A stretch of DNA of 20,160 bases from a virus: positions 1 through 20,160 of the IMG/VR virus record IMGVR_UViG_3300025146_000081, one strand, 5' to 3'. A program made the position numbers and the translations under genes. The notes under the pieces are model-generated. The model was not told the DNA's origin. It searched no databases and saw only the letters and a list, made by a program, of their open reading frames with translations. How positions within the stretch are numbered: the first letter of the stretch is position 1; every line of letters starts with the position of its first letter. This document shows, in pieces, positions 2,820-18,372 of this stretch.

Positions 2820-5800
2820 TTATGCAAAATTCCAATAGTCCTCTGCGTTATACGAATCAGAATTATCGCTTAGCATTTCTTCTGCGTATGGAGTTTCTGC
2901 ACCCATTAGACACATACCATGTGCTGTTAACCTATCATAGTGTCTCATCATCTCCATTCCAGTAATCTCCTTACATTCTTGTAGATATTCAGCAAATGCT
3001 TCCACGTGACACCTGTTTTCAAGGTAGTCCCTTGTTCTACTGAATAGCAATTGCTTAGACCTTTCCAACGAATCACACCCCGCTTTTTCCTTGTATCTTC
3101 CTGTCTTTAAGTCTATGTCGTAAAGAAGATATGCTCCATATTCTTTTTCGATAAAATATCTAAGCGTTTCATCTAAGTTTGTTTCAGGGTACACCATCGC
3201 CCCAAAATATATCGCTGCCTTTAACGTATCTTCGTTAAACTCATTTGAATTTGCGGGTCTATGTCTGTAAGACAACACAAACTTATATGTGTCCCAATCT
3301 TTTATTTCCTTACCGCCATCAACTGATGGGTCGTATTTAAGTAGTATAGCTATACCACCGTCAGACAACCTACTTTTCTTGCCAAGTGAAGCACCTGTCC
3401 GTGAATCCTGTTTTGTTCCGAACTTAAACGGGTCGCACCCTAACACGTACTTGTTTGGATACTGTGGTCGCCACATTGGAATATGTTTTCCCTTTATGGA
3501 ACTATATGTGCTTATCTGTATTCTTTTATTAGATACGGCAGGACTTGGAAATTCACTTATCCTAAACCTACCATTTTCTTCATCGTGTACAAATTCAACA
3601 TCGCTTCCAAACCCGTTTACCCACACTAAATCACCACGCACTGTTTTGTCTTCTCTCCTTAATTCAGCAAGCCTTTCATCTATCCTTTCAAGTGGAAATC
3701 CTATTGAACCTGCTTCTCCTAACCAACAGTCTGCATACTTAATAGGGAACAATTTCTTTTCTTCCCTATATGCTCTCATGGATTCTGAATCACCACGCTG
3801 AAGTAACACGTCTCTTTTGCCCTGTAAAAATTCAAGTGCTGTCTGTGTGAATCCTTCTTCTCTCTGATAGTCCAATATCGTATCTTTAACCGAAAATCCA
3901 TAGCTGTCAATAAACCCGTCAAGACCCTCTGTTGCGGGTATAAACAACCTAAATAGTCCAGAAAATGTTTGTCCGCTTGACTTTATCCTTTGATAAAAGT
4001 TTGACGTATTTGCCAAGAACCTGTAATCAAAACTACCATCCGTTAATTCATCACTCGTTGATGGATAGTCTAAGTATCCAAATATGATTCTTCCATTTCC
4101 TTGTGCGCAACAGTTCTTATTTACGTCATGGCGTTTTAATACACTGACATTGGAAGTATTGTGCGCTACCGTATTGTCTTCCAATAAAAATCTTCTGTTT
4201 CCGTCTATAACAAATCCGTAATAATCACCAACGCCAATACTCTCTACCGAAAATCCTGTATGTAACGGATTTCTCGTATTTGGATGATGCGGCTTTCTTT
4301 CGTATCTTTTCCTGTTTACCTTACACGGTATTCTCCACAAATCAAGTCCATATATAGAAACACGAAATACCTCACATTCATAAACACTTCCGTCTTCTCT
4401 TTTCATTCTTGCAATCTTTGGATACATAGAACAACTAAATCCCAAATCAAGTGCAAGTCTTCTTATATTTTCGGCAAGAACTTTTCTTTTTTGTGTTACT
4501 TCATATCCTGTTCTATTGCCTGTATATGCGTATCCATCCGAATCAATTAATCCCGCTAATAAACTAAGTCTGTTTTCTTCTGAATCAAAAAGGTAATCTT
4601 TTGGAATATGTTTGTTACCTATAACACCTATCTTTCTTAATTCTTCTATTAAGCTAAAATTCTTTTGTTTAATTATCTCGTAACCACGATAATTGTCTTT
4701 TGTTTTTATAGTCCAATTTATAGAACTAATAGTAGTATCAAAATATGACGCTATTTCTCCTACTGAATAAAACACAAGTTCTTCTACACCATTATTAAAA
4801 AAATATGTATATTCTGATTTTCTGGATAGATGATATGTTATTTCATCCCTAACCATTTGAGTATCGTTTAATGATGAAAACTCTTTTAAATAATCAATTA
4901 TTTCAATGTCTATATTCGTAATATTAACACCACCATGATACCCATCACCAAGCCACAATCCCAAAAAATAAGGTTCTACTACGTGCTTGTTCTCTGTGTA
5001 TTTGACTGGTTTCTTATACATAACAGATGCAAGTTTGTGTCTTGGTTTCATTTTAAGATATTCCTTTATGGTTTTCTTAAAATAATCACCACCTCTAACT
5101 CCGGGTATGGCATTACCATCACTTGACTTCAAACATAATATATGCTCGCTGTTACAAGTCCACTCTTTCCCCTGATTTGGAATTATCTTATACATTTCGT
5201 CAACACCACGTGCTAACCTTAAAACATTTCTCGGCAAAGAATCATCCCCCATCAAAACATCCCCAACTCGTATATCTTCAACATTCTTTACAGAACCATC
5301 AAACATTCTTATTTCCGTTCCTTTTCCAAAACATTTTCCGGCTTCGTCAACAAGTAGGTATGTCATCTTTTTACCATCGAAATACTTCTCTGATGCCGTT
5401 GTTGCATACACAAATTTTGTTTGTAAGGAATCAACTGCGTATTCGTTTTTGCCTACATCGAATTTTAGTGAATCAGAAGTTCTACCCGAAGACGTAAACG
5501 GTTTTATCCATATAGGAAACTTATCAAACGATGGAAGAAGTTTCATCTTAAAATGTTCTTCTGCGTTATCGTTACTATAACTTTGAATACCACCACCGTC
5601 TGTTCCTATCGTCCTTGTAATTACCTCAACTCCATTGCTAATTGACTTATTTGTATTTCCTGAACGCCTGTTCTTTGCCTGATGCTTTCCATAGCATATT
5701 CTTCTTGGCACGTGTTTGTTGCCAATCCTATCCACTAAGTTAATCATAGAATAAGTTCCGTCTTCATTAGGTACGGCAAATCCGTCTTTGTCTATCTTTT

Positions 5801-6332
5801 CAAATGTTTCGTTTGACGTATAGCAATAATCAACAAACAGATACTCTTTTCTATCTCTATCTCTATATCCGGGTCTGTCTTCACCCTCGTTGGTATCCAT
5901 TCTCCACACGTTCAAATAAAAGAAGTGCTTTCCTGTAATGTATGTTGGTTTACCCATATTGTAAAACCAATATCCATTCATTCTATGCCACCAAAATTTT
6001 CTTATGAAATTTATTTCGTTTTTAAAATCCTTATTCCTTTCGGTAAGCATTTCCCAAAACTTCTTCTGAATTTTTAGTAGTGTTACAACATTGTTCTTAT
6101 TGGTAGCCAATTCCTCTTTAACGGATTGTACCGCTTCTTCTTCCAAGTCAATTAATCTTCTTGGCACTTCCAATCTCTTAAATCGTTGGTCTTTGTAATA
6201 ATCACCGTACCCATCAATGTATTTCAACGGTGGTGGTTCGGGTAGTTTCAACACGATTGGTCGCAAGTCGGGGTCATTATCATTTAACACCACGTACTTG
6301 TCAGCGGGTATATAGTCCTTTAGATTACTCAT
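2820..6332 (-). CDS. terL: Terminase large subunit (TerL) with in-frame intein
   Basis: This is the DNA-packaging motor: an N-terminal ATPase that drives DNA into the prohead and a C-terminal RNase H-like nuclease that cuts concatemers. The frame encodes 1170 aa, of which residues 334-725 are an intein, so the spliced protein would be 778 aa. The ATPase part has a non-canonical Walker A, RRSGNTNKS (222-230), and Walker B, TYLLVDEA (324-331). The nuclease part shows CDPFKFG (D967), VYPETN (E1050) and HYDRLTAHG (D1133) as candidate metal ligands. The start overlaps the upstream 238-aa gene by 8 bases, implying coupling. The portal follows after 57 bases. No frameshift or broken motif is seen. 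Identification as TerL is firm; the crAss-like affiliation is moderate. Confidence 0.9.
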   Translation of the reverse strand: MSNLKDYIPADKYVVLNDNDPDLRPIVLKLPEPPPLKYIDGYGDYYKDQRFKRLEVPRRLIDLEEEAVQSVKEELATNKNNVVTLLKIQKKFWEMLTERNKDFKNEINFIRKFWWHRMNGYWFYNMGKPTYITGKHFFYLNVWRMDTNEGEDRPGYRDRDRKEYLFVDYCYTSNETFEKIDKDGFAVPNEDGTYSMINLVDRIGNKHVPRRICYGKHQAKNRRSGNTNKSISNGVEVITRTIGTDGGGIQSYSNDNAEEHFKMKLLPSFDKFPIWIKPFTSSGRTSDSLKFDVGKNEYAVDSLQTKFVYATTASEKYFDGKKMTYLLVDEAGKCFGKGTEIRMFDGSVKNVEDIRVGDVLMGDDSLPRNVLRLARGVDEMYKIIPNQGKEWTCNSEHILCLKSSDGNAIPGVRGGDYFKKTIKEYLKMKPRHKLASVMYKKPVKYTENKHVVEPYFLGLWLGDGYHGGVNITNIDIEIIDYLKEFSSLNDTQMVRDEITYHLSRKSEYTYFFNNGVEELVFYSVGEIASYFDTTISSINWTIKTKDNYRGYEIIKQKNFSLIEELRKIGVIGNKHIPKDYLFDSEENRLSLLAGLIDSDGYAYTGNRTGYEVTQKRKVLAENIRRLALDLGFSCSMYPKIARMKREDGSVYECEVFRVSIYGLDLWRIPCKVNRKRYERKPHHPNTRNPLHTGFSVESIGVGDYYGFVIDGNRRFLLEDNTVAHNTSNVSVLKRHDVNKNCCAQGNGRIIFGYLDYPSTSDELTDGSFDYRFLANTSNFYQRIKSSGQTFSGLFRLFIPATEGLDGFIDSYGFSVKDTILDYQREEGFTQTALEFLQGKRDVLLQRGDSESMRAYREEKKLFPIKYADCWLGEAGSIGFPLERIDERLAELRREDKTVRGDLVWVNGFGSDVEFVHDEENGRFRISEFPSPAVSNKRIQISTYSSIKGKHIPMWRPQYPNKYVLGCDPFKFGTKQDSRTGASLGKKSRLSDGGIAILLKYDPSVDGGKEIKDWDTYKFVLSYRHRPANSNEFNEDTLKAAIYFGAMVYPETNLDETLRYFIEKEYGAYLLYDIDLKTGRYKEKAGCDSLERSKQLLFSRTRDYLENRCHVEAFAEYLQECKEITGMEMMRHYDRLTAHGMCLMGAETPYAEEMLSDNSDSYNAEDYWNFA
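4158..5333 (-). mobile_element. LAGLIDADG intein inside TerL
   Basis: Residues 334-725 of the TerL frame (392 aa) form a complete-looking class 1 intein. It starts with Cys334 (CFGKGTEIRM) directly after the Walker B sequence DEAGK. It has a block B-like NSEH (394-397) and ends VAHN (722-725), followed by Thr726 as the +1 nucleophile. Two LAGLIDADG motifs are visible, FLGLWLGDGY (456-465) and LLAGLIDSDGY (591-601), so the homing endonuclease is probably intact. Between them, residues 520-552 (YSVGEIASYF ... NYRGYEI) resemble a small helix-turn-helix of the NUMOD1 kind. Cys1, His-Asn and Thr+1 are all present, so protein splicing should work. Splice points are inferred from motifs. Confidence 0.9.
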
Positions 6333-7041
6333 CAGGCAATTTATCTCCTACAAATCTAAGCTGTTGTATAGTAAAATTCACCCCATAAGGGCAATCTAGT
6401 CTTAAGTCATCGCCATCGGCAAGTGCGTGAGCATAGTCCTCCGGTCTAATGGCGAGTCTCGACTGCTCAATCTGATAATAGAATCTCGACACAAAATCCT
6501 CTGTCTCCGGTACTGCCTGATTTGACATTTTCTTTTCGATAGCATTTTTCTCACGCCACAAAGTGTTCACCTCCTTGATTGACTTAATGTCCTGCTTTTC
6601 TTTCATAGCCCTCAGCACGTGTCCTGCCATAGCCTCTTGTAGATACACAAGGTAGTCCCAATCTTTTTTGTTTGTCCACTTTGTATAAAGAAGTATCATG
6701 TCTAATACGTCTTTATTTTTTCCTAACACCATCTGTACCACACGCTCGTCAAACCTCTGTTGCCCGTCATGCTTTGACTTTGTCTGTGGAAATCCTGCAT
6801 ACGCAGCCGCTTCCCATTTCTGTCCCCAATAGTCAAGTGAGTTCATTTGATGAATGGGTGAGTTCGGGTCGTACATTAATACTATATAACGTAGCACCTG
6901 CGACTTGGTGAACGTCTTTTCCTTGAAATCTGTAAATATTTTTAACTGTGGTATCTCTTTCTCCAAGAACGTCACAAGCTGTGGTGAGTTCGGGTGAATA
7001 GACATTTTTGAACAGTCAAGTGATTTTATGTCTCTATCCAT
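6325..7041 (-). CDS. Conserved phage protein upstream of terL (possible small-terminase position)
   Basis: This 238-aa soluble protein begins MDRDIKSLDCSKMSIHPNSP. I do not recognise the family. It is mostly helical and charged, with several Trp/Tyr-rich stretches (for example SLDYWGQKWEAAAYAGF) and no membrane segment or signal peptide. It is the first gene of the packaging operon: a TAnnTTTG promoter lies 19 bases upstream and its 3' end overlaps the terL start by 8 bases. The small terminase subunit commonly sits immediately upstream of terL, so a DNA-recognition or packaging role is plausible, but no helix-turn-helix is obvious. Treat the role as positional inference only. Confidence 0.8.
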   Translation of the reverse strand: MDRDIKSLDCSKMSIHPNSPQLVTFLEKEIPQLKIFTDFKEKTFTKSQVLRYIVLMYDPNSPIHQMNSLDYWGQKWEAAAYAGFPQTKSKHDGQQRFDERVVQMVLGKNKDVLDMILLYTKWTNKKDWDYLVYLQEAMAGHVLRAMKEKQDIKSIKEVNTLWREKNAIEKKMSNQAVPETEDFVSRFYYQIEQSRLAIRPEDYAHALADGDDLRLDCPYGVNFTIQQLRFVGDKLPDE

Positions 7042-8313: not shown

Positions 8314-8967
8314 TTATTTTAAGTTTTCGGTTGTAAGTATCATTGTGCTTAGTTCACACAAAACTCTATTCAAGAACACACGTATAGATTCATCTTTTTC
8401 CTGTATAAATCCTTCTGTCCAACCGGGTTCATAATTAAATTCTTTAAACGAAAAAGTGTAATCAACAATCCACCCATGTCCAATAGTATATATAGAAATA
8501 GATAAAATCTTTGGTTCTGTTCTACCGCTGTAGTCTGGATGAGCAAATTCATCTTTAAGAAATTTTCCGTCAAGTCTTTGTATTTCAAAAATTAATCCAA
8601 TTGTGCTTTTTTCTAAAAACGACTTAAAATCAAAATTAAACTTTAACATTCTATATTTGGATGGATAAATAGATTCTTTTTCTCTCCATTCTTTAAGTGG
8701 CTTATTCTCATTACCATAAACGGCACGTGCAAAAATAGCATCAAAATAATTATTTAATTCCGTTGAGCTGTCTGGTAACTTACATTTACAGTCGTAGTTA
8801 TTTGCCGAATATCCGAACAAAGATTTATTTATTCCGTCCCTATACCACCCATATTGATGAGAAAACCCATTGCCTGTTTTAAGCATCCAATCAAGAACTG
8901 CCATTTTTATTTCCAAATCATATTCGTGTCCAATCAATTTAGAAAAGGCTATTTTAATTGTTTTCAT
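8314..8967 (-). CDS. Unknown 217-aa protein between SSB-like and GroES-like genes
   Basis: The protein begins MKTIKIAFSKLIGHEYDLEI and has a mix of aromatic-rich strands (HQYGWYRDGINKSLFGY, YTIGHGWIVDYTFSFKEF) with no membrane segment. I do not recognise a family or catalytic motif. A Cys pair (CKCK, about residues 60-63) is not enough for a metal site. Its ATG overlaps the stop of a 29-aa ORF (ATGA) and it is followed after 9 bases by the first GroES-like gene, so it is embedded in the replication/chaperone operon. Confidence 0.75.
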   Translation of the reverse strand: MKTIKIAFSKLIGHEYDLEIKMAVLDWMLKTGNGFSHQYGWYRDGINKSLFGYSANNYDCKCKLPDSSTELNNYFDAIFARAVYGNENKPLKEWREKESIYPSKYRMLKFNFDFKSFLEKSTIGLIFEIQRLDGKFLKDEFAHPDYSGRTEPKILSISIYTIGHGWIVDYTFSFKEFNYEPGWTEGFIQEKDESIRVFLNRVLCELSTMILTTENLK

Positions 8968-15773: not shown

Positions 15774-15898
15774 TAACGTATGGTGCTATACGATGTGGCG
15801 GACTTTCAGCAGAAAGCCCAATACGAAGCACCACAGTTTGAATTAGTAAAAATATTTAACCGAAGCACGTCACCCGCCATATTGTATATCACTTGTTA
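15774..15898 (+). repeat. attC-like 125-bp repeat, copy 1
   Basis: The element begins TAAC and ends GTTA (outer 4-bp pairing). Its main stem is GTGCTATACGATGTGGCGG (15783-15801) with CCGCCATATTGTATATCAC (15874-15892); nearly every position pairs, with some G-U. It has the same length (125) as the element at 17867 and shares its box ATGTGGCGGACTTT, its opposite box CCGCCATATTG, and short words in the central arm (AATATT, TAACCGA). The variable half of the stem differs between copies but stays complementary. This is the architecture of integron attC sites; an intercistronic RNA hairpin is the alternative. Confidence 0.65.
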
Positions 15899-15931
15899 GC
15901 GGATGCCCTTCTTCATAAATCATAAATAAAA

Positions 15932-16111
15932 ATGAAAATAGCAGTAATAGTAACAGTTTGCCATCAAATAGGAATAGAAACTTGGAAAGACTTTCACACT
16001 ACAAAAGTGTTTGAAGAAAATTCAACCATTAAAGAGATTGATGATTGGATAAAATCAATTAATAAAAATGCAAGTTTCTCAGATGCTAAAATCTCGTTGT
16101 GTGTCGATTAG
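15932..16111 (+). CDS. Unknown 59-aa protein, cassette-like
   Basis: ATG 15932 opens a 59-codon frame (MKIAVIVTVCHQIGIETWKD, then FHTTKVFEENSTIKEIDDWI). It looks like a small alpha/beta protein. It directly follows the first attC-like repeat after a 33-base A-rich leader. No family is recognised. The gene is AT-rich and lies between elements resembling integron attachment sites, so it may be a mobile cassette gene. Confidence 0.6.
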   Translation: MKIAVIVTVCHQIGIETWKDFHTTKVFEENSTIKEIDDWIKSINKNASFSDAKISLCVD

Positions 16112-16174
16112 GGTTTCCGCTAACAATCTGCTAAACGAATATTTTGTTATACAAAACTTTGTAAATGTTTGATT

Positions 16175-16960
16175 ATGAAACTATCAGTAATAACAACTTC
16201 TTACAACAAGTGTGAAACACTAAAACACGCAATCGACAGCGTGATTAACAACTTAATCGGAATAGACTATGAGTTAATAATCGTTGACGATGGAAGCACA
16301 GATGGCAGTGTGGATATAATCAATTCATACACCGATAGTAAAATTAAGAAGATATTCACACCGCACTACGGAATGTTGAACGCCTACAAAGTAGCACTTG
16401 ATAATGTAAGTGGTGATTACATTACTTTTTGTGATTGTGATGACTACAAGAATCGTGGACTAAAGTTTCAGTTTCTAATGATGGCAGCGTTTAACCATGA
16501 CCTTACGTGTTCACGAGCATACATTGATAACGGTAAAATAATTAAGTCAGACACACCGATTGAAGTGTTGGAGGCAGGATTGGCTTACGACAATGTACTG
16601 AAAGGTAAGGCGTGTGTTCACGCACAAACGTTAATGATAAAAAAAGACTACTTTGACAAGTACATAGACTTCGATAAGTTTTTAGACTTCAACGTGTGGG
16701 ATTTACCGATACTACTTGAAGCTATACGCCACACCAAAATGGTATATTTCGATTTCTACACAGGAACGTACCGTGTGGGTACAGAAACAGCTACCAAGAC
16801 AGAAAGTCGCTTAAAAAGGCTAAAACTCGTGTTAGGATACATGAAAATAAAGCTGTGGTATATTAGAAGGTATGGTTGTAAACCAACCACGTTTACCTAC
16901 ATGATTTATAAATTTACAAGGGATATGGTGAGTATAATATTTAAAAGGTGGAATAAATGA
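16175..16960 (+). CDS. Family 2 glycosyltransferase
   Basis: A GT-A fold glycosyltransferase of 261 aa that would transfer a sugar from a nucleotide-sugar donor. It shows the GT2 start LSVITTSYNKCETLKHAIDS, IIVDDGSTDGS for the nucleotide site, and DYITFCDCDDY containing the metal-binding DxD. The C-terminus is basic without a clear membrane anchor. I chose ATG 16175 over the TTG two codons earlier. In phages such enzymes may modify phage DNA or virion proteins or alter the host surface; the acceptor cannot be told here. The next gene overlaps by 4 bases (ATGA). Codon use is closer to the phage structural genes than to the cassette-like ORFs. Confidence 0.85.
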   Translation: MKLSVITTSYNKCETLKHAIDSVINNLIGIDYELIIVDDGSTDGSVDIINSYTDSKIKKIFTPHYGMLNAYKVALDNVSGDYITFCDCDDYKNRGLKFQFLMMAAFNHDLTCSRAYIDNGKIIKSDTPIEVLEAGLAYDNVLKGKACVHAQTLMIKKDYFDKYIDFDKFLDFNVWDLPILLEAIRHTKMVYFDFYTGTYRVGTETATKTESRLKRLKLVLGYMKIKLWYIRRYGCKPTTFTYMIYKFTRDMVSIIFKRWNK

Positions 16961-17178
16961 ACTATCTAATTGAATACACGGCAAAGACCACACAAGGAGT
17001 TGTGATAAAGAGTGGCAAGATGCGTGTGAAAAACAAAATGAGTACACTCCACGCACAATTGTCATTTGAAGATTATCTGAAAAGCAAGATGCCAAATTTC
17101 GGTGTGTTGATAGTGCATGACTGCAAGGAGGAAATGGATAACGATTTCTTAAATATTTTTAAAGATATTTTTAAGTAA
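16957..17178 (+). CDS. Unknown 73-aa protein coupled to the glycosyltransferase
   Basis: It starts MNYLIEYTAKTTQGVVIKSG in an ATGA overlap with the glycosyltransferase and ends NDFLNIFKDIFK. The N-terminal strand-turn-strand and HAQLSFEDYLKSKMPNFGVL look like a small alpha/beta fold. Similar short proteins with the opening 'xYLIEYTA+' occur among small phage proteins in this window's style (compare the 39-aa ORF at 19742), but I recognise no family. Confidence 0.65.
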   Translation: MNYLIEYTAKTTQGVVIKSGKMRVKNKMSTLHAQLSFEDYLKSKMPNFGVLIVHDCKEEMDNDFLNIFKDIFK

Positions 17179-17255
17179 AAAAACTAAAGTACCGTAGGGA
17201 GGCTGTAAACGGGCGTGAGTGTACGATGGCTGATTGTAATAATTGTGGTGTTATA

Positions 17256-17324
17256 TAACGTTTTGGTGCTTGTTGTCAGTAGCGGATTTACAGCACAAAT
17301 GTTTAATTGAAAATAAAAGTTGAT
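17256..17324 (+). repeat. Short TAACG-type intergenic repeat before the 68-aa gene
   Basis: It begins TAACGTTTTGGTGCTTG and contains GTGCT ... AGCAC as a 5-bp stem, then an AT-rich leader to ATG 17325. It has the same layout as the elements at 12027 and 12471. The upstream part of the 146-base gap (17179-17255) holds nothing I can identify. Confidence 0.45.
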
Positions 17325-17531
17325 ATGAAAATAGAAATTAAAATTACCGATGATGCTGGCAATGTTCAGTTATACAATGTTAGCGGTTCGTTGCAACAAA
17401 TAGTGTGGGACGGATTTCTAACAGCACAATACCAAGATGAACAATGGCATGACCAAGATACTTGTGATTTAATAGTAAAGAAATTAAAGGGAGAAAGTCC
17501 GCTTGAATATGCTGTCAGCAATGACCGATAA
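17325..17531 (+). CDS. Unknown 68-aa acidic protein, cassette-like
   Basis: The ATG 17325 start (MKIEIKITDDAGNVQLYNVS) is preferred over the TTG at 17307. The protein is a small strand-rich domain with an acidic helical end (DQDTCDLIVKKLKGESPLEY). Its stop TAA is the first three bases of TAACGG, as in two other genes here. No family is recognised. It lies in a run of small genes separated by repeat elements. Confidence 0.65.
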   Translation: MKIEIKITDDAGNVQLYNVSGSLQQIVWDGFLTAQYQDEQWHDQDTCDLIVKKLKGESPLEYAVSNDR

Positions 17532-17575
17532 CGGTTTAGCTATGTTTAGTTGCGAACAAATTAAAACGAAATATT
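17529..17575 (+). repeat. Short TAACGG-type intergenic repeat before the 97-aa gene
   Basis: Only 47 bases: TAACGGTTTAGCTATG, then an AT-rich leader to ATG 17576. The first TAA is the upstream stop codon. No strong stem is visible, so it may be a degenerate or shortened copy. Confidence 0.4.
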
Positions 17576-17869
17576 ATGAATGATTACGACTTATTGGAAA
17601 AAATGATTGAGGCATCATCAGCCTACGTTAAAGGTGAAATAAGCTCAAAAGAGTGCAGTGCAAAAATGGCAAGTTCATTAAATGCTCATAAAGAGCAATT
17701 AAATATAGCTTGTGTTAACCGCTGTGCTTCTGTTATCCCAACGACATGGTTAGACCCTTTATTGACAGGAAAAGATGCAGCATTAACTGGTGAGGCCGGT
17801 AAATGGGGATGCCCTGATATTGAAAACTTACTGAAAGCAATTAAAAACCGTATTGAGCATTGCGGTTAA
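17576..17869 (+). CDS. Unknown 97-aa protein, cassette-like
   Basis: It begins MNDYDLLEKMIEASSAYVKG and is mostly helical, with conserved-looking Cys residues (SSKECSAKM, NIACVNRCASV, KWGCPDIE). The N-terminus resembles the start of the 64-aa protein at 12956 in pattern (helix, GE(L/I)(T/S), EC). Its TAA stop begins the second full attC-like repeat (TAACGG), so ORF and repeat together look like one cassette. No function assigned. Confidence 0.65.
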   Translation: MNDYDLLEKMIEASSAYVKGEISSKECSAKMASSLNAHKEQLNIACVNRCASVIPTTWLDPLLTGKDAALTGEAGKWGCPDIENLLKAIKNRIEHCG

Positions 17870-17991
17870 CGGTTTGCACATAGGCAATGTGGCGGACTTT
17901 GGAACGCTGAACTTTCTGCAACCACTAAACTTGATTTGAAAACGAAACTTAATATTAACCGAGAACCCGCCATATTGCCTATGTGCTGTTA
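17867..17991 (+). repeat. attC-like 125-bp repeat, copy 2
   Basis: The element runs from TAAC (the stop of the 97-aa gene) to GTTA. Its stem GCACATAGGCAATGTGGCGG (17876-17895) pairs with CCGCCATATTGCCTATGTGC (17967-17986): 20 pairs, one of them G-T/G-U. The shared box ATGTGGCGGACTTT and the exact 125-bp length match the copy at 15774, while the outer stem half differs and compensates. A GTTA end plus unpaired spacer between outer and inner stem recalls the R and L boxes of integron attC sites. No integrase gene lies in the window. Confidence 0.7.
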
Positions 17992-18022
17992 TAGGTAGGG
18001 CTTCTCACAAACTTAAATAGAA

Positions 18023-18298
18023 ATGAAAAAAACAATTTGGAAATTTGAATTAGACGTTACGGATAAACAATTTGTTCGTATGCCACAAGAAGCTGAATTA
18101 TTATCAGTTCAAACACAAAATGAAACGCCTTGTTTATGGGCTTTAGTAAATCCCAATCAAGCAACAGAGGAAAGATGCTTTGAAGTATTTGGAACTGGGC
18201 ATCCTGTTCATTGTGATATGGGTATTGATAGAAAATATATTGGAACGTTTCAGATGCAAAATGGCAGATTAGTCTTTCACTTGTTTGAACGTCTTTAG
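18023..18298 (+). CDS. DUF7352-like protein
   Basis: This 91-aa protein (MKKTIWKFELDVTDKQFVRM, then PQEAELLSVQTQNETPCLWA) follows the pattern of a widespread small domain found in phages and bacteria, which I remember as DUF7352. Shared features are the IWKF opening, the LSVQ strand, PCLWALV, the FGTGHPV turn, and GTFQMQNGRLVFHLFE at the end. It is strand-rich and probably a small soluble beta domain. The biochemical role of the family is not known to me. It directly follows the second attC-like repeat after a 31-base leader. Confidence 0.65.
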   Translation: MKKTIWKFELDVTDKQFVRMPQEAELLSVQTQNETPCLWALVNPNQATEERCFEVFGTGHPVHCDMGIDRKYIGTFQMQNGRLVFHLFERL

Positions 18299-18372
18299 CC
18301 TTACCAATAACTATGTTATATGTGCAATAAAATGACGGCGATTTATATGTTAATTATTTCATTTACAACCAC

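Follow-up and report, generated by a model that had tools for sequence, protein, structure and literature searches.

Two hairpin elements in a tailed phage and their relatives

The stretch of DNA analyzed here (the window) is a 20,160-base virus record (IMG/VR IMGVR_UViG_3300025146_000081) that is identified as a tailed phage by its large terminase, helicase and DUF3127 genes, and whose host is probably a member of the Bacteroidota. It contains two hairpin elements bounded by AAC and GTT, the positions of crossover boxes, which we regard as very probably the attC sites of integron gene cassettes, each lying 5' of its gene in a partly decayed phage array that lacks an integrase. An initial annotation made from the sequence alone had described two repeats of 125 nt each with TAAC/GTTA ends and shared boxes, and all of these particulars, including the coordinates 15774-15898 and 17867-17991, proved exact; the gene-proximal stem halves that it quoted do differ between the copies and yet pair, in the first copy with one G.T. 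In an ungapped alignment the two elements are identical at 60 of 125 positions, and each folds into one long hairpin, at -31.9 and -42.2 kcal/mol, respectively, for the top strand. The same two elements occur at the same spacing in three IMG/VR contigs. The features of the array are as follows.

15774..15898, plus strand: attC-like element 1 (AAC 15775-15777, GTT 15895-15897; the canonical attC orientation is the minus strand)
15895..15908, plus strand: cassette A start, GTT followed by an arm complementary to the cassette's end arm (6/6 match after GTT)
15932..16111, plus strand: cassette A gene, encoding 59 aa; its closest Pfam match (E 0.094) falls short of significance
16111..16124, plus strand: cassette A end arm, ending in CCGCTAAC, with AAC at 16122-16124; the detector described below finds no attC after it
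16169..16960, plus strand: family 2 glycosyltransferase gene (PF00535, E 1.4e-22) located after cassette A and before cassette B; no att sites belonging to it were seen
17257..17310, plus strand: putative decayed attC of which the 5' half (arm plus loop) remains and the 3' arm is gone; read by eye and missed by the detector
17325..17531, plus strand: gene B, whose TAA stop overlaps the AAC at 17530-17532
17530..17560, plus strand: putative 5' half of a second decayed attC, read by eye
17576..17869, plus strand: gene C, 97 aa, whose TAA stop overlaps the AAC of element 2
17867..17991, plus strand: attC-like element 2 (AAC 17868-17870, GTT 17988-17990)
18023..18298, plus strand: cassette D gene, DUF7352 (PF24043, phrog_3848), with homologues at 90% and 47% protein identity that two other phages carry as cassettes
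18297..18311, plus strand: cassette D end arm, the complement of 17988-18002, with AAC at 18309-18311; no attC was found after it

Downstream of each window element come a single small gene and a short arm that is the complement of that element's 3' flank: 15895-15908 pairs with 16111-16124, enclosing gene A, and 17988-18002 pairs with 18297-18311, enclosing gene D, the latter at 5/6 positions as read on the identical stretch of a relative (L152). Between these two cassettes lies a 73-aa open reading frame (ORF) alongside the glycosyltransferase gene and genes B and C, and the array as a whole would amount to about four cassettes. The same order of element, gene and arm recurs in a different phage (L004), where it is set between two phage genes. 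The initial annotation had overlooked the inverted arms that close the cassettes, the two putative half-attC and the position of the attC on the unusual side of the gene; its reading of the repeats as an integrase-less attC cluster is supported by the arm pairing of cassettes A and D, the compensated stems and the exchange of cassettes in relatives.

The detector requires AACG...[TGC]GTT with paired arms, and the AAC/GTT ends therefore hold by rule in all sets derived from it. Its matches in the window are exactly elements 1 and 2. Approximate dinucleotide shuffles totalling 1,276,552 strand-bases contained no element, compared with 70 in ten real loci (255,354 strand-bases) that had been chosen because they bear elements. 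From 67 distinct detector matches we picked 43 by hand for an alignment (A2), for which RNAalifold predicted 14 pairs with two-sided changes in 13 of them. The 14-bp stem was paired in 92.3% of the alignment cells, compared with 56.1 +/- 1.7% after shuffling and at most 47.7% when slid, although part of this pairing arises by construction, since detector matches are selected for pairing arms. Elements that were first found by a sequence pattern likewise fold as one stem.

That pattern, drawn from the window, located 38 stretches in genome contigs, of which 28 were kept and ten were dropped by eye as chance matches in other organisms; all 28 lie in records labelled as Bacteroidota or Cloacimonadota lineages. 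An alignment of 24 rows (A1) was obtained from the 27 listed by removing L015, L030, L040 and L041 and bringing in L004, which was restored from the exclusions; L001, L003 and L005 were excluded as duplicates and six elements without simple ends were also left out. The resulting covariance model (R1) rests on 24 rows, three of them from phages and some of them identical copies of the window elements. R1 matches were present in 17 of 17 genomes searched, all chosen for holding the pattern, with up to 44 in one genome, and AAC/GTT ends were found in most, not all, elements of the pattern and R1 sets. Many elements in the fetched loci form same-strand arrays, with up to nine in one 7.7-kb bacterial contig. 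A covariance model had been suggested at the outset as a check on the attC reading, and the matches of the version run here flank single small ORFs with variable gene content.

To quantify arm pairing we took the 135 R1 matches, kept partial, cut-off and opposite-strand ones out of the list, and obtained 59 gaps between neighbours, 46 of which, the window pair included, had clean AAC/GTT ends on both sides. Across these 46 gaps the four bases after GTT paired with the four bases before the next AAC at 3.61 of 4 positions; the corresponding values were 1.68 between the two sides of a single element (n = 95) and 1.52 at random. Pairing across the gene and not within the element is what a G|TT crossover of circular cassettes predicts: the start arm of a cassette is complementary to its own end arm and not to the other side of the same attC. 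In three loci of one Saprospiraceae genome (L138, L139 and L140 in G015), several elements are preceded by a near-identical stretch of ~150 bp that ends in an inverted repeat and carries ATC instead of AAC, possibly a variant type of cassette.

Orientation, cargo and exchange of phage cassettes

An attC usually lies 3' of the cassette gene, although this is not part of the definition of an integrase-less attC cluster (CALIN), and the window cassettes carry theirs on the 5' side. R1 scores window element 2 at 94 bits in this orientation and at 25 bits in reverse. We scored orientation from the longest ORF between paired arms. Among 72 bacterial cassettes, from 45 loci chosen for R1 or integrase matches, the attC was 3' of the gene in 65, 5' in six and unclear in one; two of the six (L106 minus and L127 minus) probably result from misreading one and the same hairpin on its opposite strand. 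A first set of 35 phage cassettes, to which the window contributed cassette A only, gave the opposite picture, with 32 attC 5' of the gene, none 3' and three unclear. Because this set came partly from gene queries, a second was drawn by a DNA pattern for one attC type, which found 92 stretches in viral contigs (some in the same contig), 80 of them listed as loci and 54 with scorable cassettes; it overlaps the first by at least three phages (L261, L279 and L326), and some of the contigs are possibly prophage or mis-binned. In this second set 137 of 150 distinct cassettes have the attC 5' of the gene, three have it 3' and ten are unclear, a distribution that differs from that of the 72 bacterial cassettes at p ~1e-43 (Fisher). 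Genes in attC-bearing phages are thus almost always back to front relative to bacterial integrons of the same kind, and such inverted phage cassettes look new.

The top strand of the window was also considered as the canonical attC strand and was rejected, since 65 of the 72 bacterial genes are antisense to it; gene direction in bacteria and the position of the integrase (see below) together make the window minus strand canonical. A second attC pattern had no matches in viral contigs, and the Polaribacter phage P12002L contained weak elements only, the best at -18.7 with the threshold lowered to -14. Four bacterial cassettes have the phage-like arrangement with attC 5' of the gene (L106:6916, L117:5332, L125:7297 and L130 minus 3455) and may be derived from phages; the protein of the L117 cassette resembles a C-5 cytosine methylase, as judged by eye only. 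Among the 137 inverted phage cassettes, the first ATG of the longest ORF (a predicted start) falls inside the attC in 77, and the stop overlaps AAC in 33. In L159 a methyltransferase ORF begins inside the attC, and many of its relatives align only from about residue 25.

Phage and bacterial cassettes also differ in what they carry. The phage proteins are short, with a median of 103.5 aa (n = 160) versus 216 aa for the bacterial ones (n = 63). We scanned the first 145 of the 160 phage proteins, 116 of which belong to the pattern-based set; these 116 gave 23 matches to N6_N4_Mtase, four to C-5 methylase, one to Dam and one to EcoRI methylase. As these matches may overlap, DNA methyltransferases make up as much as a quarter of the 116, and the remaining phage proteins mostly had no match. 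The methyltransferases plausibly act as anti-restriction genes. Matches among the 63 bacterial proteins were scattered over 45 Pfam families, and the commonest of the 25 families listed was a secretion sorting domain (five proteins); restriction, abortive infection and toxin-antitoxin families are also present (AlwI, AbiJ, AbiEii, ParE and Fic).

There is direct evidence for the exchange of whole cassettes. Two genomes (L118 and L065) share a 1,364-bp unit, an attC with its gene as far as the next AACG, at 97.9% identity, and the identity ends there on both sides. Homologues of the DUF7352 gene of cassette D lie between different attC sites in three phages, namely the window, L155 (88% DNA identity, with a weak upstream element of 21 bits) and L159 (47% protein identity, inside a five-element array). 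The clearest case is provided by isolated virulent Flavobacterium phages (Muminvirus and one relative; eight stretches fetched, seven compared), in which cassettes are gained, lost and shuffled at AAC and the Muminvirus arrays differ by whole cassettes. In the 13 kb fetched, mumin6-3 and mumin9-1 differ by one 506-bp cassette that ends at TAACGTT, with flanking blocks 99.9-100% identical. When all pairs are pooled, an AAC is present no more than 8 nt from the block end at 16 of the 21 distinct ends on the right and 13 of the 23 on the left, compared with a background of 16.7%. This gain and loss at the crossover site was seen in the Muminvirus isolates and not in the window phage. Elements confined to fixed positions with no exchange, which the initial annotation had named as evidence against its reading, are therefore not what the isolates display. 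Two otherwise identical phage cassettes (L160 at ~6975-6983 and L206 at ~8475-8483) differ only in a few bases after GTT; the difference breaks the arm pairing in one copy, and simple cassette exchange does not explain it.

These data bear on the proposal that the stems serve in transcription termination or RNA processing between phage genes and take no part in recombination. The elements are indeed mostly intergenic hairpins whose structure is conserved over sequence, as such a role would have it, but it offers no account of why the 3' flank of one element pairs with the 5' flank of the next across a gene, nor of cassette-exact insertions and deletions; moreover, more than half of the inverted phage cassettes have the longest-ORF start inside the element, and a T-run is absent 3' of both window stems. 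We rejected terminators on the grounds of the arm pairing and the cassette-exact changes, and consider this explanation extremely improbable.

Bacterial integrases and a candidate mechanism

In bacterial arrays the canonical order is gene and then attC, and a tyrosine recombinase can sit upstream of the array and codirectional with it. Within a first set of 13 integrase loci, five had a canonical attC downstream, and in all five a GTT with 6/6 bases matching the end arm of the first cassette, an attI-like site, lies 39-304 nt after the integrase stop; L064 is the weakest of the five, as its first cassette would be ~5 kb long, and L066 has a further attC upstream. A second set comprised the 30 best-scoring loci, of which 29 were read and L239 was left out. 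Here a canonical attC was found downstream in 11 of 29 and upstream in none, and an attI-like 6/6 site, judged by arm match only, was present 39-135 nt after the stop in 11 of the 11 with a downstream attC. Integrases of this kind occur in 83 of 120 Flavobacteriaceae genomes at E <= 1e-40, and R1 matches in 46 of the 120 at E <= 1e-6.

These integrases match IntI over both halves and lack ~42 residues between them. The spacing between two motifs is 65-66 residues in 14 of 16 array-linked integrases (it was not measurable in two) versus 107 in one IntI1, and a comparison of the L015 integrase with IntI4 2a3v shows the same gap. Six of the integrases score 202-209 bits on TIGR02249, below its cut-off of 265 (IntI1 control, 506.7), and two of the six do exceed the 220 bits required by the mixed family NF040815 ('site-specific tyrosine recombinase/integron integrase'). 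None of the 120 genomes exceeded the TIGR02249 cut-off, with a single IntI1 protein as the sole positive control and no genome control; scores below this cut-off would explain why IntI-based surveys passed over these integrases. That bacterial arrays can lie behind an integrase without the IntI-specific segment, with an attI-like site after its stop, looks new. The segment absent here is the one with which IntI reads the extrahelical bases of attC. A near-invariant G.T in the stem (41 of 43 elements) becomes a C.A mismatch on the opposite, canonical strand, and we speculate that this mismatch takes the place of the extrahelical bases.

On plasmids, the C-terminal 276 residues of the L015 integrase find their best matches in Acinetobacter recombinase genes (60% identity), and in the one record examined (L211, NZ_CP104735.1, an Acinetobacter plasmid, 2967-5117) the recombinase gene adjoins tet(X3). 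A putative first half of a canonical attC was read by eye 3' of tet(X3), not called by the detector, and convincing attI pairing was not found at tet(X3) in this record. It is possible that tet(X) was at one time a cassette in an integron of the Bacteroidota.

A different kind of mobile element carrying terminal inverted repeats, for instance a small transposon, would equally bound a gene with short inverted arms and place homologous units in different phages. The arms observed here, however, vary in sequence between cassettes and yet remain paired, the units stand head to tail and share one hairpin, and the bacterial units follow an IntI-related integrase and an attI-like site. For these three reasons a transposon was rejected, and we give this reading hardly any credence.

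If the repeats are attC sites, the crossover that delimits a cassette unit would fall after the AA of AAC and before its C (G|TT in the canonical reading of the opposite strand), and the folded strand, the minus strand of the window, could be recombined in trans during infection by a host integron integrase, presumably the IntI-related tyrosine recombinase that lacks the extra segment. Since the attC of a phage array all share one direction, phage transcription would be followed by inverted cassettes alone; inverted genes would stay in step with the phage operon on entering an array whose attC all point the other way, and the inversion would thereby persist. Phage and host would thus hold two cassette pools sorted by orientation. 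An inverted cassette might originate from an attC that recombined with an AAC after a neighboring gene. We are inclined, by a narrow balance, to the broader view that Bacteroidota possess a largely overlooked integron class, with a patch-less integrase upstream of and codirectional with attI, and that virulent phages maintain a separate, inverted, methyltransferase-rich pool shuffled in trans by the host integrase, with orientation sorting the two.

Several observations weigh against this interpretation or its parts. No integrase is carried in the window, as none was seen in a Pfam scan of 20 ORFs and a PHROGs scan of ten, and the array is partly decayed, consisting of two intact attC, two putative half-attC and two end arms without an attC. 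An empty site was sought for the window phage and none was found; the three relatives found all carry the same elements. No significant element is located near three further DUF7352 homologues in phages (L156-L158, 50-58% identity), block ends are away from AAC in 5 of 21 right and 10 of 23 left cases (some at the GTT side), and the three reversed phage cassettes are not accounted for by the inversion model. On the bacterial side, 18 of 29 integrase loci have no attC within ~1.5 kb or less after the stop, eight of the 18 having <1 kb of sequence there, and an integrase tree (33 rows planned, six without sequence) had long branches and did not resolve the relation to IntI. Finally, the attC type of the viral contigs occurs in only 3 of 397 Flavobacteriaceae genomes, a rarity that leaves room for another enzyme in a phage-specific pool.

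Some of these points would suit relic attC sites that were captured long ago, are no longer recombined by an integrase and are shuffled only by ordinary homologous or illegitimate phage recombination. The decay of the window array, its lack of an integrase, the block ends away from AAC and the altered end triplets of L004 are all consistent with relics, and section 3.4 of PMC9892861 proposes off-target and illegitimate recombination for the entry of cassettes into phages. Relics do not readily explain why the two junctions of the cleanest isolate pair share only TAACGTT, at the predicted crossover, or why phage cassettes defined by the arm-pairing rule so consistently adopt one orientation (137 of 150). 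We therefore regard relics as unlikely, though far from negligible, and favor attC sites that are recombined in the present.

Under the broader view given above, phages with inverted cassettes would form a second reservoir coupled to the bacterial one by shared recombination chemistry, with genes for evading restriction moving from phage to phage and genes for defence and other functions residing in host arrays. It would give a concrete mechanism for differences in methyltransferase content, and perhaps in efficiency of plating, between closely related virulent phages (PMC7077304). The neighborhood of tet(X3) hints that this system may also have carried a resistance gene out of the Bacteroidota. 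For direct tests, the Muminvirus isolates on Flavobacterium LMO6 and LMO9 offer a suitable system. Elsewhere in the window, an intein containing a LAGLIDADG homing endonuclease (Hom_end_hint, E 1.7e-23) is present in the large terminase gene (2820-6332).

Relation to known integrons and phage clusters

Phage attC clusters are already known, which tempers the statement in the initial annotation that no such array was known in a phage of this type. Passages of Qi et al. 2023 (PMC9892861) describe CALINs in virulent phages, one of them a Polaribacter phage, and report that five of six tested phage attC recombined with attI1 via IntI1. Two attC near each other, as in the window, equal the IntegronFinder 2 default number for a CALIN, according to a passage of PMC9024848. 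The clusters described by Qi et al. resemble ours in being integrase-less and in having methyltransferase genes in their cassettes, and differ in that, in the portions of PMC9892861 consulted, the cassettes of two phages run in the same direction and the attC of P12002L are divergent; those portions give neither an orientation rule nor the host integrase described above, and 'Flavobacterium' has no occurrence in the main text. Among titles and abstracts of open-access PMC articles (subscription papers and preprints being outside the scope), none was found on inverted phage cassettes or this integrase arrangement.

For Muminvirus of Flavobacterium, the main text of PMC7077304 describes methyltransferase content that varies between isolates and has no occurrence of integrons; these phages carry the same inverted cassettes as those described here, as found in the present analysis. 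In bacteria, a list in PMC8618304 includes Bacteroidota among the phyla with integrons, and the relevant part of PMC9024848 names one complete integron in Bacteroidetes proper (Salinibacter ruber), whereas arrays with an integrase and an attI-like site recur in Flavobacteriaceae once a canonical IntI is not required. Like the sedentary chromosomal integrons with IntI treated in that part of PMC9024848, the bacterial arrays described here combine an attI-like site, attC arrays and cassettes with paired end arms; unlike them, they have an integrase that lacks ~42 residues of IntI, scores below the TIGR02249 cut-off in the six proteins scanned and lies upstream of and codirectional with the array.

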